Of a DNA stretch of 64,000 nt, positions 4,016 to 59,932 are shown piece by piece (within the stretch, counting starts at the first letter, position 1; each line of letters starts with the position of its first letter). A program made the position numbers and the translations under genes. The DNA comes from an uncultured Poribacteria bacterium (GTDB taxonomy: Bacteria > Poribacteria > WGA-4E > WGA-3G): positions 4,644,506-4,708,505 of the forward strand of contig OX638316.1 in NCBI GenBank assembly GCA_951812525.1, written 5' to 3'. A model generated the notes under the pieces. The model did not search any database. It worked only from the letters and a program-made list of their open reading frames with translations, and was not told the DNA's origin.

Positions 4016-4567
4016 TTAGGATACTTCAAGCCCCCACGCGTCCCAACCTTGGTGCTGTCTACGCGCAAAAAGTTCAATCTTACACTGCTTGGGAAACATC
4101 TCCTCAATCCGTTGCCGTACGATGTCGGGTTTTTCAGAGTGGCGTGTCCGTTTCGCTTGAACAAGCTGTTTGACATTTCTTGCACCTCTGGGTTGTGGAA
4201 TTTTACCGCGTTTGAAAACAAGGCACAATTCGCACTGGCTCATCGTATAGGCTCCTGGATTTACGCGTTCTTTGTCCCAGACGAAGGCAACTGTTGCCCA
4301 CCGAAACCCCCAAGCCTTGCCGAGTTGAATCGCTTGATCCAGATGTGGGGACGAAGTCCACATAAAAAGTAGACAATTCTCTTCGCTGATTGCTACAATA
4401 TCCCAGGTCTCCATCTCTGACACGGGTACAGTCGGATAATGTCGAACAGCACCGCCACTATCTTTTCCACCACTCCCTGTGTGTTGGAGTTGTCCTTTGT
4501 AGTCCCACGGCGGATCTGCGTAGATAACGCCGTACTTCTTGTTAGGAAAGGGAGCATAAAATGTCAT
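4016..4567 (-). CDS. MT-A70 family adenine-N6 DNA methyltransferase
   Basis: This 183-residue protein has the MT-A70 signature. YADPPWDYKG near residues 15-24 contains the catalytic DPPW motif IV. LLFMWTSSPHLDQAIQLGKAWGF is the typical second block, followed by CELCLVFKRGKI and a C-terminal KIELFARRQHQGWDAWG. Such enzymes transfer methyl from S-adenosylmethionine to adenine N6 in DNA (prokaryotic members) or RNA (eukaryotic METTL3). It starts 21 bp after nuoI on the same strand, with no restriction endonuclease beside it, so it looks like an orphan methylase. The length is normal for a stand-alone prokaryotic member. Confidence 0.9.
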   Translation of the reverse strand: MTFYAPFPNKKYGVIYADPPWDYKGQLQHTGSGGKDSGGAVRHYPTVPVSEMETWDIVAISEENCLLFMWTSSPHLDQAIQLGKAWGFRWATVAFVWDKERVNPGAYTMSQCELCLVFKRGKIPQPRGARNVKQLVQAKRTRHSEKPDIVRQRIEEMFPKQCKIELFARRQHQGWDAWGLEVS

Positions 4568-4588: not shown

Positions 4589-5137
4589 CTATTTTGCTTC
4601 AACACTAAGCCCTTCTTGCGGAATGTCGTTGTTCGCAACGAGCATATCTCGATCAAAAATGAAATCGCTGCGGGAACTACCAAGACTTTCCCCTTCTTTT
4701 TGGCGTTCACGAAAGTATTGGGGAAGTGTTAAGCCTGTCATGCGAATAGCATCCTCAGGGCAAGCCTCAACACAGTATCCACAAAAGATGCAACGGAGCA
4801 TGTTGATTTCAAAGATGTCAGGGTACTTTTCTCGCTGATAACCTTCCTTGGTTGTCCAACCATCTGGTGCGGGTGCAGCTTGAATAGTGATGCAATCGGC
4901 GGGGCAAGCGGTGGCACACAAGAAACATGCGACACACTTAATCTCGTCTTTCTCTGTAGTCGTCAGTTTGTGAATACCGCGATACCGTTCATTGCGTTCA
5001 TCCACACTCCTCGGATCTTCAGGATATTGGTAGGTTAATTTCTTTTTCGGGATATGCTTTAGCGTGGTAAACATCCCTTTAATCAAGGCTGGAATATAGA
5101 GTCTATCCCAAAAAGACATTTCTTCGCTAACTTTCAT
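4589..5137 (-). CDS. nuoI: NADH-quinone oxidoreductase subunit I (two 4Fe-4S ferredoxin-like)
   Basis: About 182 residues from the chosen start. Two ferredoxin motifs are complete: CVACFLCATACP (Cys 68, 71, 74, 78) and CIFCGYCVEACP (Cys 116, 119, 122, 126). They bind the N6a/N6b clusters that pass electrons towards quinone in complex I. The ATG at 5137 is preferred over one six bases upstream because AGGAAGG lies 8 nt before it; a longer frame to 5173 would place the binding site inside the gene. No other nuo genes are nearby, so the rest of complex I must lie elsewhere. Another two-cluster ferredoxin is the alternative, but the length and N-terminal region fit NuoI. Confidence 0.88.
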   Translation of the reverse strand: MKVSEEMSFWDRLYIPALIKGMFTTLKHIPKKKLTYQYPEDPRSVDERNERYRGIHKLTTTEKDEIKCVACFLCATACPADCITIQAAPAPDGWTTKEGYQREKYPDIFEINMLRCIFCGYCVEACPEDAIRMTGLTLPQYFRERQKEGESLGSSRSDFIFDRDMLVANNDIPQEGLSVEAK

Positions 5138-44353: not shown

Positions 44354-44411
44354 ACCCCAAGTTGCTACTAACGAATGTTGGATGTTTCAATAAGATTATA
44401 AGGCACTTTTC

Positions 44412-44485
44412 ACACCCCAGAGGGGTGTTATGTCTATAGAAAACCGTATATTTATGTCTCGCACCCCAGAGGGGTGCTATGTCTA
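44412..44485. repeat. Two hairpin-plus-TATGTCTAT modules
   Basis: ACACCCC-AGA-GGGGTGT and GCACCCC-AGA-GGGGTGC, each followed by TATGTCTAT. They match the hairpin module of the 71-bp tandem array at 55924 (TCCC-GGA-GGGA then TTATGTCTATAG). They sit in the 315-bp gap before the TPR gene, which otherwise holds only A/T-rich sequence. Confidence 0.7.
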
Positions 44486-44556
44486 TTAATAGGTGGCAAC
44501 TTGCGTTAAAACAATACTAAAATTAATCCTAAATTAACCCCCTATTTCATAACAAA

Positions 44557-52318: not shown

Positions 52319-53176
52319 ATGGCGAAATTCCCAATCGTTGACACACACGTTCATCTATGGCACCCGAAACAGTTGAGATATCCATGGCTCTCGGAAGTAC
52401 CCGCCCTAAATAGACCCTACCTCCTCAAAGATTACACAGCCGCATACGGTGACTTGGAAATCGAATCCATTGTCTTTGTTCAATGCGATACACATCCCGA
52501 TGACGGCTTGAAAGAGACGGCATGGGTTACGTCTCTTGCGACACGGGTAGAACCTCGGATTCAGGGGATTGTTGCGTGGGCACCGCTCGAAGAGGGTAGA
52601 CAGGTCGCACCTTTCGTCGAAAAATTGGCAGAGAATCCGCTCGTCAAAGGTATCCGCAGACTTATTCAATCCGAAAGTGTTGACTTCTGCATCCAACCCG
52701 ACTTTGTAAGCGGTGTCAAAACGCTCGCTCGCTACAGATTAAGTTTTGACATCTGTATCTTCCATCCACAACTCGCCAATGCGATTCGACTTGTGGAACA
52801 GTGTCCGCACGTCCAATTCATTTTGGACCATATCGGCAAACCCGACATCAAAAGTCAACGTTTCGACCCATGGAAAGCGGAAATCCAGACACTTGCAGAG
52901 TTTCCGAACGTCCACTGCAAAATATCGGGCTTGGTAACAGAGGCTGATTTCGATGCGTGGACAGCTGCCGATCTACAGCCGTATATCGAGCATGTTATTA
53001 CCTGTTTCGGTTTTGATAGGGTTATATACGGTAGCGATTGGCCCGTCTCCACACAAGCAACGGATTATCGGCGATGGGTAGAGACATTGGAAGCAGCGGT
53101 CTCCGGTTGCTCGGCTGAAGAGATGGGAAACCTTTTCAGGGATAATGCAATTAGATTTTATCGATTGGGTTCATAG
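52319..53176 (+). CDS. Amidohydrolase family 2 protein (lactonase-like TIM barrel)
   Basis: 285 residues. VDTHVHLWHP has the HxH metal pair (His 10, 12); DHIGKPD and YGSDWPVS supply later metal ligands. The pattern is that of L-fuconolactonase and related sugar lactonases. The ATG at 52319 has AGGAG seven bases upstream; the TTG at 52256 is rejected. It may act with the nearby Gfo/Idh/MocA and ThuA proteins in sugar breakdown, which is inference. Confidence 0.9.
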   Translation: MAKFPIVDTHVHLWHPKQLRYPWLSEVPALNRPYLLKDYTAAYGDLEIESIVFVQCDTHPDDGLKETAWVTSLATRVEPRIQGIVAWAPLEEGRQVAPFVEKLAENPLVKGIRRLIQSESVDFCIQPDFVSGVKTLARYRLSFDICIFHPQLANAIRLVEQCPHVQFILDHIGKPDIKSQRFDPWKAEIQTLAEFPNVHCKISGLVTEADFDAWTAADLQPYIEHVITCFGFDRVIYGSDWPVSTQATDYRRWVETLEAAVSGCSAEEMGNLFRDNAIRFYRLGS

Positions 53177-53201
53177 GGAAAGAAAAAATAAGCGGGAAGT
53201 C

Positions 53202-53227
53202 AGGCGAGGTTGGGAAACCTCGCCTAC
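53202..53227 (-). repeat. REP-like hairpin, well preserved
   Basis: Stem AGGCGAGGTT/AACCTCGCCT, minus-strand lead GTAGGCGAGGTTTCCC. Between the amidohydrolase and glcB ends; may also terminate transcription. Confidence 0.75.
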
Positions 53228-53270
53228 TTATTTAATTGAGGTGGATTCATTATTCGCAGCGTTTTTGTAT

Positions 53271-53289
53271 CGCAAACTGTTAGTTTGCG
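53271..53289. repeat. CTGTTAG-family hairpin
   Basis: CGCAAACTGTTAGTTTGCG: 8-bp perfect stem around CTGTTAG. Confidence 0.7.
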
Positions 53290-53380
53290 GGAAACCACCT
53301 GACGCAATATAGAAGGCAACACCCACAAAGAACACAATCTAACAGATTCTGCTAAAAAGATAAAAACTCGCGTATTTTTA

Positions 53381-55564
53381 TTAACCGCCAGCCTTGACTT
53401 CGCGTCTGCGTGGATGTAGCACAAACTCCGTATATCCGTTCGGGAGTTCGCACCCTTTAAAAACTAAGTCTAAAGATGCCTGGAACGCGACGCTTTGGTC
53501 ATAATTTGGGGACATGTTCCGATAATTCGGGTCCCCAGCGTTCTGCTCATCAACGATCTTCGCCATACGCTGGAAAGTCTCGGTTACCTGCTCCTCTGTA
53601 ACGATCCCGTGGTGGAGCCAATTTGCAATATGTTGGCTCGAAATTCGTAGCGTTGCCCGATCCTCCATCAAGCCGACGTTGTTAATATCGGGTATTTTTG
53701 AACAACCGATACCTTGATCTACCCACCGGACGACGTATCCCAAGATGCCTTGGGCGTTGTTATCCAATTCGCGCTGCACCTCATCGGATCGTAGGACGCG
53801 TTCTTCCAATAGCGGTGGTGTTAACAGATCCTCTAAACTGGCGCGCTGTCTGGCTGCCAATTCCTTTATCCAGTTCCCAACGTCAACCTTGTGATAGTGC
53901 ATCGCATGCAGCGTTGCGGCTGTCGGTGACGGCACCCATGCTGTTGTTGCACCCGCCAACGGGTGATTCACCTTCGTTTCAACCATCTCTGCCATCTGGT
54001 CAGGTTTCGTCCACATTCCTTTTCCAATCTGCGCCGTGCCGAGCAATGCGGTCTCAATCCCTATATCAACGTTCCAATCTTCATAAGCCAGCATCCAGGG
54101 TTCGTCGCGAATCTCCATCTTGGGAATCATTGGACCTGCTTCCATGCTCGTATGGATTTCATCGCCAGTTCTATCTAAAAACCCAGTATTAATAAAAACG
54201 AGTCGTTCCTGTGCCATCCGAATTGCTTCTTTAAGGTTGACAGTCGTCCGACGTTCCTCATCCATGATCCCAATCTTAACGGTATTCGTTGGGAGTCCGA
54301 GTGCGGACTCAATCCACTCGAACAGCCGAATGGTCATGTCTACTTCTTCGGGTCCGTGGAATTTCGGTTTGACAATGTAAATACTGCCCGTTCTGCTATT
54401 CCTATAGTCCCCATTTTCCTGCAGGTCATGCATGGCAGCGAAGGATGTTACCATAGCATCAAGGATGCCTTCTGGAATTTCTTCACCATCAGCTGTTGTA
54501 ACGGCATCCGTGTACATGTGGGGTCCAACATTCCGGATGAGGAGGAGGCTTCTGCCGGGTAGGGTCAACGTGCTTCCGTCGGGTGCGGTAAACGTCTTAT
54601 CGGATGCGAGTCGGCGGGTTAGCATTTCTCCGCTTTTCTCGAAGGTTGTCTCCAGTGTCCCTTTCATGATACCGTTCCAGTTGCTATAGACGCGAACCTT
54701 ATCGGCTGCATCGACAGCGGAGACGGAATCCTCGCAATCTTGGATGGTCGTGATTGCTGATTCAAGAATAACATCATAGACACCAGCAGGATGCGCTTTT
54801 CCAACCGGATGTTCACGGTCTATTCGGATCTCAATGTGAAGCCCATGGTTTCGGAGTACAACAGCACTGAGTTCGCCGTTGTTTTCCGTAAAACCGACGA
54901 ATTTGGACGGCTCTGCTAAGCCGACCTCACTCCCATCAGCGAGTGTTGCGCGTAATTGTTGCTGGTCATGAACGGTTTTGAGGGCAAATTGCGTAACGTC
55001 AGAGAAACTGCCGGTTTCAAGTCCTGCCATTTCATCTAAAAACTGCTCGGTGTAGGCGATGACTTTCGCACCTCGGACGGGGTTATAGGTAGCACTTCGC
55101 GTAGCACCGTCCGATTCGTCAATAACATCAGTGCCGTAGAGTGCGTCGTAGAGGCTTCCCCATCTGGCGTTCGCTGCATTTAGGGCATAGCGGGCATTAT
55201 CGGTCGGTACAACCAATTGTGGACCTGAGATAAGTGAAATCTCGGTGTCAACATCCTCGGTAATGACAGTAAAATCTCGTCCTTCAGGGAGCAGATAACC
55301 TATGTCGGTAAGAAACGCCTTATATTCCTCACCGTCGATTGGATCACCTTTGCGCGCCAGATGCCAGGCATCAATCTGCTGCTGAAGGTCATCCCGTTTC
55401 TCTAAGAGTGCCTTGTTTTCTGGTGCGAACTCCGTGACGATGTCGCTCAGTGCTTTCCAAAAGGCATCTGCTTCTATCCCAGTACCGGGTGCGATCTCAT
55501 CTCTTACCAGTGCGTACAAATCTTCATCTATCCTGAGGCTACCTATTTCAATCCTGTTTCCCAT
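53381..55564 (-). CDS. glcB: Malate synthase G
   Basis: 727 residues, the length of the G isoform. [69 protein letters not shown] and the C-terminal ANWLHHGIV match GlcB. Condenses glyoxylate with acetyl-CoA to malate; no isocitrate lyase in the window. GGAG precedes the ATG. Downstream (toward 53.3 kb) lie REP and CTGTTAG hairpins. Confidence 0.97.
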
Positions 55565-55923
55565 ACTCTTTTCTCCATTCCAAGGTGTTGTGGGGTGTTG
55601 TTTGTAGGTCTCCCATGTTGCAAAGGGTCGGTTGCTTCATTGCAAGGGGCAGATTTCTGCTAACCGATGCATCATTGCATCGACAACAAACTATGTCTTA
55701 ATTTCTAAATTATCATAGCAATAGATTGTTAGTTTGTCAATTATTTTTTTAGTTGTGGGCAGGGCATTCAGTTTTCCAATAATTTATATCCGGACACCCG
55801 GATTTAGTCTGGGAATAGACTAAATTTTGCCCCGCAGAATGCCACACGCGCATTCTTGCTTCGCAGTGAGAATGATTTACGCGGCAAAATTTGTCTTTGC
55901 TTTACATTTCCATTCCTTAAAAC

Positions 55924-56349
55924 ATATCTAATAAATAGACTAACCCCTCTATATAGACAACCTCTTGAGTCCCGGAGGGACGTTATGTCTATAGAAATCT
56001 GATAAATAGACTAACCCCTCTATACAGACAACCTCCTGAGTCCCGGAGGGACGTTATGTCTATAGAAATCCAATAAATAGACTAACCCCTCTATACAGAC
56101 AACCTCTTGAGTCCCGGAGGGACGTTATGTCTATAGAAATCTGATAAATAGACTAACCCCTCTATACAGACAACCTCTTGAGTCCCGGAGGGACGTTATG
56201 TCTATAGAAATCTGATAAATAGACTAACCCCTCTATACAGACAACCTCTTGAGTCCCGGAGGGACGTTATGTCTATAGAAATCTGATAAATAGACTAACC
56301 CCTCTATACAGACAACCTCTTGAGTCCCGGAGGGACGTTATGTCTATAG
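55924..56349. repeat. Six-copy 71-bp tandem repeat array
   Basis: Six units of exactly 71 bp: 55924-55994, 55995-56065, 56066-56136, 56137-56207, 56208-56278, 56279-56349. The first four differ by one to three changes (unit 1 has its own lead), the last three are near-identical. Each contains ATAAATAGACTAACCCCTCT, a TCCCGGAGGGA hairpin, and TTATGTCTATAG at its end. There are no unique spacers, so this is not a CRISPR. Confidence 0.95.
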
Positions 56350-56452
56350 AAAATTGTGATCTCCAACTCTTGAACCCCGGAGGGGTGACATCTGTAACAC
56401 TTTCCACTTTATATTTCAGAATATTTTCCGCACTTTTTTATCATCCAACCCG

Positions 56453-56477
56453 GTAGGCACGGTTTCCCAACCGTGCC
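56453..56477 (+). repeat. REP-like hairpin inside element D
   Basis: GTAGG lead, stem GGCACGGTT/AACCGTGCC with loop TCCC. Confidence 0.75.
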
Positions 56478-56670
56478 GGGCTGACAAAAGAGAACGTTAA
56501 ACCCAATAATTTCTTAAAACTCAATGACCCTAAAATGCGCCGTTGTGTGACTTGCGGAAATATGGCAGTTGTGTTAAGATGTTAAACAGAGTACATATTA
56601 TGTTACATGCAGTGTAAAAACGCACATCATAGAATGACTGGCAGCAAATGCACAAGCAGATTAACTTTAA

Positions 56671-58647
<1,977 letters not shown>

Positions 58648-58676
58648 TCGAATGAGCATGAGCCACCTCTGCAACG

Positions 58677-58794
58677 GTAGGTGCGGTTTCCCAACCGCTC
58701 ACATCTGATGGAACTAAAGATACTGAAGCAACGGTAGGTGCGGTTTCCCAACCGCACCGGACCGTCGATAATCGGGGTTAGAAACCCCTCCCAC
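58677..58794. repeat. Three REP-like hairpins after thiC
   Basis: Forward copies at 58677-58698 (right arm truncated at AACCGC) and 58734-58758 (stem GTGCGGTT/AACCGCAC), and a reverse copy at 58773-58794 (GGGGTT/AACCCC, lead GTGGG). The two forward copies flank the duplicated thiC fragment. Confidence 0.7.
58699..58730 (+). repeat. Duplicated 32-bp fragment of the thiC 3' end
   Basis: Bases 58607-58638 of thiC (starting TCACATCTGATGGAACTAAA) recur exactly at 58699-58730, outside the gene, between two REP-like hairpins. Too short to encode anything. Confidence 0.9.
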
Positions 58795-58852
58795 AAGTCC
58801 AGGCTTCTATAAGCTCAGAATTGAGAGATCACTTGAAAGGCAAATCCTAAGT

Positions 58853-59932
58853 ATGAAAATTGGAATTATTGGCTGTGGAACAATTAGCCGTGCCTATTTT
58901 GAGGGGGCACGAAAAACTAACATCTTAGAAATCAAAGCCTGTGCTGACCTTCGAATGGAAGCGGCGCAGGCACAAGCCGAAAAATATAACTCCCATGCAT
59001 GCACGGTCGATGAATTGCTCGCAGACGATGAGATTGAACTGATTGTCAACTTAACCATTCCGAGAGCACACGTTGAAGTCGGTTTGCAAGCCCTAGAAGC
59101 AGGGAAACACGTCTACAGTGAAAAACCGCTCGGTGTAGATATTGAAAGCGGAAAACAACTCATCGCTACCGCAGCTGAAAAAGGACTCCGCGTCGGATCC
59201 GCACCCGACACATTCCTCGGCGCGGGCATCCAGACATCACGACAAGCATTGGACGCTGGAAAAATAGGCAGACCCATCGCCGGCACGGCGTTTATGTGCG
59301 GTCACGGACACGAAAGTTGGCATCCGAACCCCGCCTTCTATTACGACATCGGTGGCGGTCCAATGTTGGACATGGGACCTTATTATGTGACGGCTCTTGT
59401 GAATATCCTCGGTCCTGTTAAGCGTGTTGCTGCGATTACCACGATGACGTTTGAAGAGCGTGTTGCAACGAGTGAAGCGGTGCGCGGCTTACGTATCCCG
59501 GTCAAAACCACAACTCACCTCACCGGCACAATCGAATTTCAGAACGGCGCAATTATTACAATGATTATGAGCTTCGATATGTGGCGACACTCTCTCCCCT
59601 GTATCGAAATTTACGGTGAAACCGGCTCAATGACTGTCCCTGATCCAAACGGATTTGGCGGTCCTGTAAACGTATGCCCAGCCGGTGGTGATTGGGAAGA
59701 AGAGGATATCCCTTTCCCGAACAACGCTCGGATGATTGGCGTGATTGATATGGTATCGGCAATTGAGTCGGGACGGATGCATCGGGCGAACGGTGCGTTG
59801 GCGTATCACGTACTTGAGGTTATGCTTGCTTTTGATAAATCCTCTGAAACCGGTGAACACGTTGTCATCGAAAGCACAACGGAGCGTCCAGAACCTGTAC
59901 CGGTCGGTTTGAAGGAGTGGGAGATAGATTAA
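58853..59932 (+). CDS. Gfo/Idh/MocA family oxidoreductase, tandem copy 1
   Basis: 359 residues. KIGIIGCGTISRAYFEGA is the nucleotide loop, EKPLGVDIESG has the EKP hallmark, and GGPMLDMGPYYVTALVNILG is the family's central block. The C-terminus ends in PVGLKEWEID. Substrate not evident. The next gene, 11 bp on, is a close paralog. Confidence 0.93.
   Translation: MKIGIIGCGTISRAYFEGARKTNILEIKACADLRMEAAQAQAEKYNSHACTVDELLADDEIELIVNLTIPRAHVEVGLQALEAGKHVYSEKPLGVDIESGKQLIATAAEKGLRVGSAPDTFLGAGIQTSRQALDAGKIGRPIAGTAFMCGHGHESWHPNPAFYYDIGGGPMLDMGPYYVTALVNILGPVKRVAAITTMTFEERVATSEAVRGLRIPVKTTTHLTGTIEFQNGAIITMIMSFDMWRHSLPCIEIYGETGSMTVPDPNGFGGPVNVCPAGGDWEEEDIPFPNNARMIGVIDMVSAIESGRMHRANGALAYHVLEVMLAFDKSSETGEHVVIESTTERPEPVPVGLKEWEID

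Follow-up and report, generated by a model that had tools for sequence, protein, structure and literature searches.

The locus between malate synthase G and thiC

We analysed a window of 64,000 nucleotides from a sponge-symbiont bacterium, a candidate Poribacterium whose genome is a single contig of 5.06 Mb. The divergent genes for malate synthase G and ThiC are separated here by a composite insert that contains a tandem array (Table 1). TRF places the array at 55926-56352 with period 71, 6.0 copies, 97% match and 0% indels (score 819). No other array of the window comes near it in strength, and no score above 200 was obtained in 20 shuffles of the surrounding 10 kb. Pairwise differences between the units amount to 0-3 bases. 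There is none among units 4, 5 and 6, and units 1, 2 and 3 have two, one and two changes from the unit consensus, respectively. All six units contain the GTCCCGGAGGGAC hairpin and the TATGTCTATAG tail at the unit end, followed by AA. These data confirm the sequence-only reading as regards six units of period 71 with few differences, each with a hairpin and a tail.

Table 1. Coordinates of the features in the window
Feature	Position	Strand	Details	Basis
Malate synthase G gene, left neighbour	53381..55564	-		PRK02999 / TIGR01345 above cut-off
Dispersed repeat left of the array	55762..55918	+	further hairpin element nested inside; 55 partial matches in own genome	
Array of six 71-bp units	55926..56351	+	unit starts 55926, 55997, 56068, 56139, 56210, 56281	TRF and unit comparison
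Unit 1 hairpin GTCCCGGAGGGAC	55969..55981	+	every 71 bp: 56040, 56111, 56182, 56253, 56324	sequence; covarying stem across 30 modules
Unit 1 tail TATGTCTATAG	55984..55994	+	repeated every 71 bp	sequence; conserved across modules
Second hairpin ACCCCGGAGGGGT with short tail GACATCTG	56374..56394	+	proximal partner of direct doublet	
Module of second REP family (CCGGTAGGCACGGTTTCCCAACCGTGCCGGG)	56450..56480	+	copies surround a different Y1 gene, L044:3012-3485	sequence
thiC, right neighbour	56710..58647	+		PRK09284 above cut-off
159-bp dispersed insert with direct doublet	44355..44513	+	hairpins 44412-44428, 44461-44477	

The aceB-thiC junction is kept in the 13 congeners that show both genes at the locus (one genome per species was compared). 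No match to the array was found at any of these 13 junctions, some of which are short intergenic regions while some have other inserts. The 71-bp unit as a whole was absent from the 60 relatives searched, bar one weak partial match. The identity of units 4-6, the nearly exclusive occurrence of the whole unit in this genome and the congeners without the array support the earlier suggestion that the amplification is recent, and indicate that it is probably lineage-restricted. In the relative G024 (ThiC 97%) the alignment jumps from window position 55749 to 56507, where a remnant similar to the right-hand repeat is still present. Because of this remnant, and of other inserts in G035 and G030, the empty site for the whole insert upstream of thiC is approximate rather than clean.

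The sequence-only reading had placed the array inside the largest inverted-repeat element, and the repeat finder indeed gives an outer inverted repeat of 22 nt (55765-55786 / 56662-56683, 77%). A single element at 55765-56683 is rejected, since the right arm is native thiC leader sequence, which relatives retain; the left one belongs to a separate dispersed repeat.

A short hairpin element, TGTAAAGC(A/T)AAGACAAATT with a variable palindrome and AATTT, was observed inside REP hairpins, where it replaces a few bases (window 55822-55911; L045:4480-4520 and 4700-4750; L044:2910-2965 and 4045-4100). Its palindrome arms vary between copies yet stay complementary. The second REP family (CGGTAGGCACGGTTTCC...) has a copy immediately to the right of the array. 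Around a REP_Tyr_transpos gene (L044:3012-3485) its copies make up arrays of 18, 49-50 and 54 bp (within L044:2200-4110).

No credible match to a known RNA family was found by Rfam in positions 53000-59000, and no TPP riboswitch at thiC. An RNA gene or attenuator was considered and rejected; the fold of a single unit beats shuffles only mildly (z from -2.2 to -2.3 on the plus strand and from -1.3 to -1.6 on the minus strand).

The repeated module and its partner transposase

A genome-wide search for TATGTCTATAGAAA with one mismatch yielded 51 sites, versus 2 for the reversed pattern. Thirty modules from this genome and its relatives were aligned for the covariance test. Five of the six pairs of the stem are changed on both sides, with 33 cells versus a shuffled mean of 11 (0/500), and slid versions of the stem have far lower covariation scores. 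At E<1 the covariance model has 122 matches in the genome, of which 91 are outside two transposase loci; at E<1e-3 the number is 80. Neighbouring matches at most 150 nt apart share a strand in 61 of 63 cases, the commonest spacings being 50 and 49, and all isolated module pairs (24/24) are direct. The second hairpin to the right of the array is such a match (C1:4700870-4700905), 50 nt past the last array match.

The module had also been noted to occur singly at 44412 and 44461. It is present at both positions; these are, however, the members of one same-strand pair, 49 nt apart, within a 159-bp insert. The site of this insert is empty in G024, where the alignment reads through, and the alignment coordinates of G035 give the same gap; many similar inserts occur in congeners. 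The 159-bp insert ends in short inverted repeats (CAAGTTGC(C/T)AC), possibly with a 7-nt target duplication (TAAAATA/TAAAACA). The 71-bp unit itself is found singly at three further sites in the genome, within MITE-like copies of about 240 bp, the most complete of which has the ends TTTATGGTA.../...TACCATAAA. Terminal inverted repeats like those of the 159-bp insert would not be expected from an IS200-type enzyme. As both carriers, the 159-bp insert and the MITE of about 240 bp, have such repeats, their sequence suggests that they are moved by some other transposase. MITE-like repeats of about 240 bp with ends like TTTATGGTAGATTTTAGAA also carry the doublet in L004, L005 and L006 (about 1450-1680), and the G030 insert ahead of thiC (L087) also contains ends similar to these.

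Five Y1_Tnp genes were found in the genome. Two intact ones, 71% identical to each other, lie amid modules (C1:2375022-2375498 and C1:1935743-1936192), both away from the array; the other three have no model match within 2.5 kb. The module-flanked enzymes score above the NCBIfam cut-off for IS200/IS605 transposases and below that for REP-associated ones (REP_Tyr_transpos). Their DHIH, WQ and Y---Q--HH motifs show no or almost no variation across 24 homologues. TnpA-Y1 subclass 1.2 has the published signature DH[IV]H, WQ and Y---Q--HH (PMC6006769), and the module-flanked transposase is a putative member of this subclass, assigned by motif, not by tree.

The orientation of the flanking modules was analysed at 26 Poribacteria loci (25 best matches, drawn from this genome and its relatives, plus this genome's second gene). 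Inward-facing modules bracket the gene within 250 nt at 24 of them, and 107 of 112 flanking modules point inward. A model-free search, for a hairpin and then a generalised tail, found 98 inward versus 6 outward modules at 42 Poribacteria loci, with at least one at 41 of them. The same search at 36 loci from other phyla (Bacteroidota, Verrucomicrobiota, KSB1, Ignavibacteria, Acidobacteria, Planctomycetes and others) gave 38 inward versus 13 outward, with at least one at 25 loci and modules on both sides at 11; these cross-phylum counts are descriptive, because the tail pattern was shaped after viewing some of the tested loci, and the contrast between inward and outward is safer. Shuffled flanks gave about 0.05. 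By eye, many flanks have two hairpins about 50 nt apart, of which the distal one carries CATNTTT(A/G)TAG and the proximal one lacks the full tail. On sequence evidence, the module is a REP-like repeat with its own Y1 transposase and about 80 dispersed copies.

Arrays were also observed beside subclass 1.2 genes elsewhere. A compact array with modules every 25 nt lies upstream of such a gene in a MAG labelled Akkermansia (L237:1112-1447), and six 118-bp units with two modules each lie beside a Flavobacterium gene (L226:667-1403).

Edges and growth of the array

The array arose inside one copy of the doublet, within a MITE-like fragment between malate synthase G and thiC. A second array in the genome (C1:4722526-4723081) consists of about five units of 120-121 bp. 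It has the same left neighbour repeat as the array of the window, and thus the two are related copies. An array in another species (G028), with 7 units of 70 bp and an unrelated spacer, is independent. The right edges of the window, 4722526 and G028 arrays lie 3, 4 and 3 nt past TATAG, respectively, and the left edges are at differing distances; these three arrays, two of which are related, have units exceeding the 50-nt doublet in length and are the basis for the fixed right edge. The 50-bp arrays beside the genes are uninformative on the junction, as their units share the spacer and thus do not locate it.

In E. coli, the CT dinucleotides cleaved by TnpA-REP lie on the 5' or 3' side of the REP structure (PMC8266576). 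This cleavage near the REP structure and the clustering of the right edges after TATAG suggest the following scheme. The subclass 1.2 transposase would act in trans on single-stranded DNA, recognise the hairpin and cut just 3' of TATAG. The freed 3' end would be re-copied or rejoined upstream, so that each round would add a unit with the right edge fixed at the tail and a locus-dependent left edge (71, about 121 and 70 bp). No demonstration of cutting by a subclass 1.2 enzyme was found in the literature. Overall, the array is probably a repeated REP-like module of a subclass 1.2-type Y1 transposase, which would have grown by enzyme cutting with re-copying or rejoining, and this degree of confidence applies chiefly to what the module and its enzyme are.

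For the growth step there is a serious rival, namely replication slippage or unequal recombination that multiplied a transposase-linked REP without any enzyme. We consider it quite possible, with a probability not far below even. Hairpins and short repeats generally promote slippage, the edges share 1-4 nt of sequence, and the identical units 4-6 are at one end. However, slippage does not readily account for a right edge just past TATAG that three arrays share although their left edges differ. Moreover, these right edges are about 16 nt from the base of the hairpin, where we would expect a stalled polymerase to slip.

Another possibility is that the array is kept for its effect on the neighbours, as a set of terminators or a BIME-like protein-binding site between divergent genes. 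Indeed, nine terminator-like sites occur in the region versus 1.0 expected, six of them being the unit hairpins, and BIME-2 binds DNA gyrase (PMC2817692). On the other hand, the hairpins have no clear T run, the gene pair does without the array in 13 congeners, and identical modules occur at unrelated sites; hence we regard this explanation as improbable. Finally, although mis-assembly of exact tandem repeats can occur, a wrong number of units is very improbable, as the genome is a single contig, the array is only 427 bp long with private variants in its units, and comparable arrays are present in separate assemblies.

Comparison with known systems

Arrays of this kind are known, because the reiteration of a REP together with flanking DNA in tandem has already been described (PMC3733652) and the E. 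coli rayt gene is itself flanked by BIME-2 (PMC2817692). As in canonical systems of REP/BIME and RAYT, the repeats are short extragenic palindromes in high copy number (80 matches at E<1e-3, with a covarying stem), and the Y1 gene is flanked by repeats in inverted orientation (24 of 26 loci). Clusters of tandem repeats with flanks, as well as clusters beside the gene, are also known from the REP/BIME elements (BIME-2, GTAG/CGTC families; PMC2817692, PMC3733652, PMC8266576). However, the tag is TATGTCTATAG or, more generally, (A/G)TAG about 10 nt 3' of the hairpin (CATNTTT(A/G)TAG in other phyla), whereas canonical REPs have GTAG or CGTC at the foot. Pairs are direct here and mostly inverted in canonical REPs; similarly, a REPIN is formed by two inverted REPs moving as a unit, whereas the isolated pairs of this genome are without exception on the same strand. 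The enzyme belongs to class 1 (Y---Q--HH) and not to class 2, the canonical TnpA-REP/RAYT (Y..NP). Thus the module is REP-like in its working, yet fails two defining features of canonical REPs, the tag and the enzyme class.

The enzyme resembles TnpA-Y1 subclass 1.2 in the motifs DHIH, WQ and Y---Q--HH, the length of about 150-159 aa and the low copy number (PMC6006769). The survey of this subclass reported neither REPs nor typical IS200 end hairpins, and placed the subclass in Cyanobacteria and Bacteroidetes (PMC6006769). Here, in contrast, hairpin modules bracket the gene, and more phyla are involved. The automatic REP search of the survey required a 5' GT[AG]G tag (PMC6006769), and as this tag is absent from the module, the latter may have been overlooked. 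No description of the module was found in the literature on subclass 1.2 repeats, IS200-derived ends-only elements and BIME-2. Relative to the papers searched, what is new is the link to subclass 1.2 across several phyla, the 3' tag and the layout in direct doublets. Subclass 1.2 has been described as close to IS200 transposases, without IS traits or REPs, and the repeats provide a candidate substrate for it, in cultured hosts as well (e.g. Flavobacterium frigidarium). The findings bear on the question of how REPs spread, and a single fixed edge in the arrays indicates a candidate cut site that is directly testable.

Class 3 TnpA-Y1 with its atypical repeats is similar in having an IS200-like Y motif and many dispersed hairpins, but has Y----Q, a core of greater length and a CnGA foot on the 5' side, features that are absent here (PMC6006769). 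IS200/IS605 elements and their ends-only derivatives (PATEs) share the enzyme fold and hairpins on one strand. In a doublet, TATAG follows one hairpin on its 3' side and precedes the other on its 5' side, which is also how the cut sites are placed at the right and left ends of IS200/IS605. Unlike IS200/IS605, no tnpB is seen beside the genes and there is no defined left or right end; besides, typical end hairpins are direct around the gene, whereas the modules point inward from both sides. Tentatively, and in our view less likely than not, subclass 1.2 may be a separate class of REP system derived from the IS200 side, in which cutting of one-hairpin units at TATAG and their re-insertion at their own tail would let the enzyme itself write tandem arrays; the hairpins with 3' (A/G)TAG in direct doublets would then resemble the junction of a right end with a left end.
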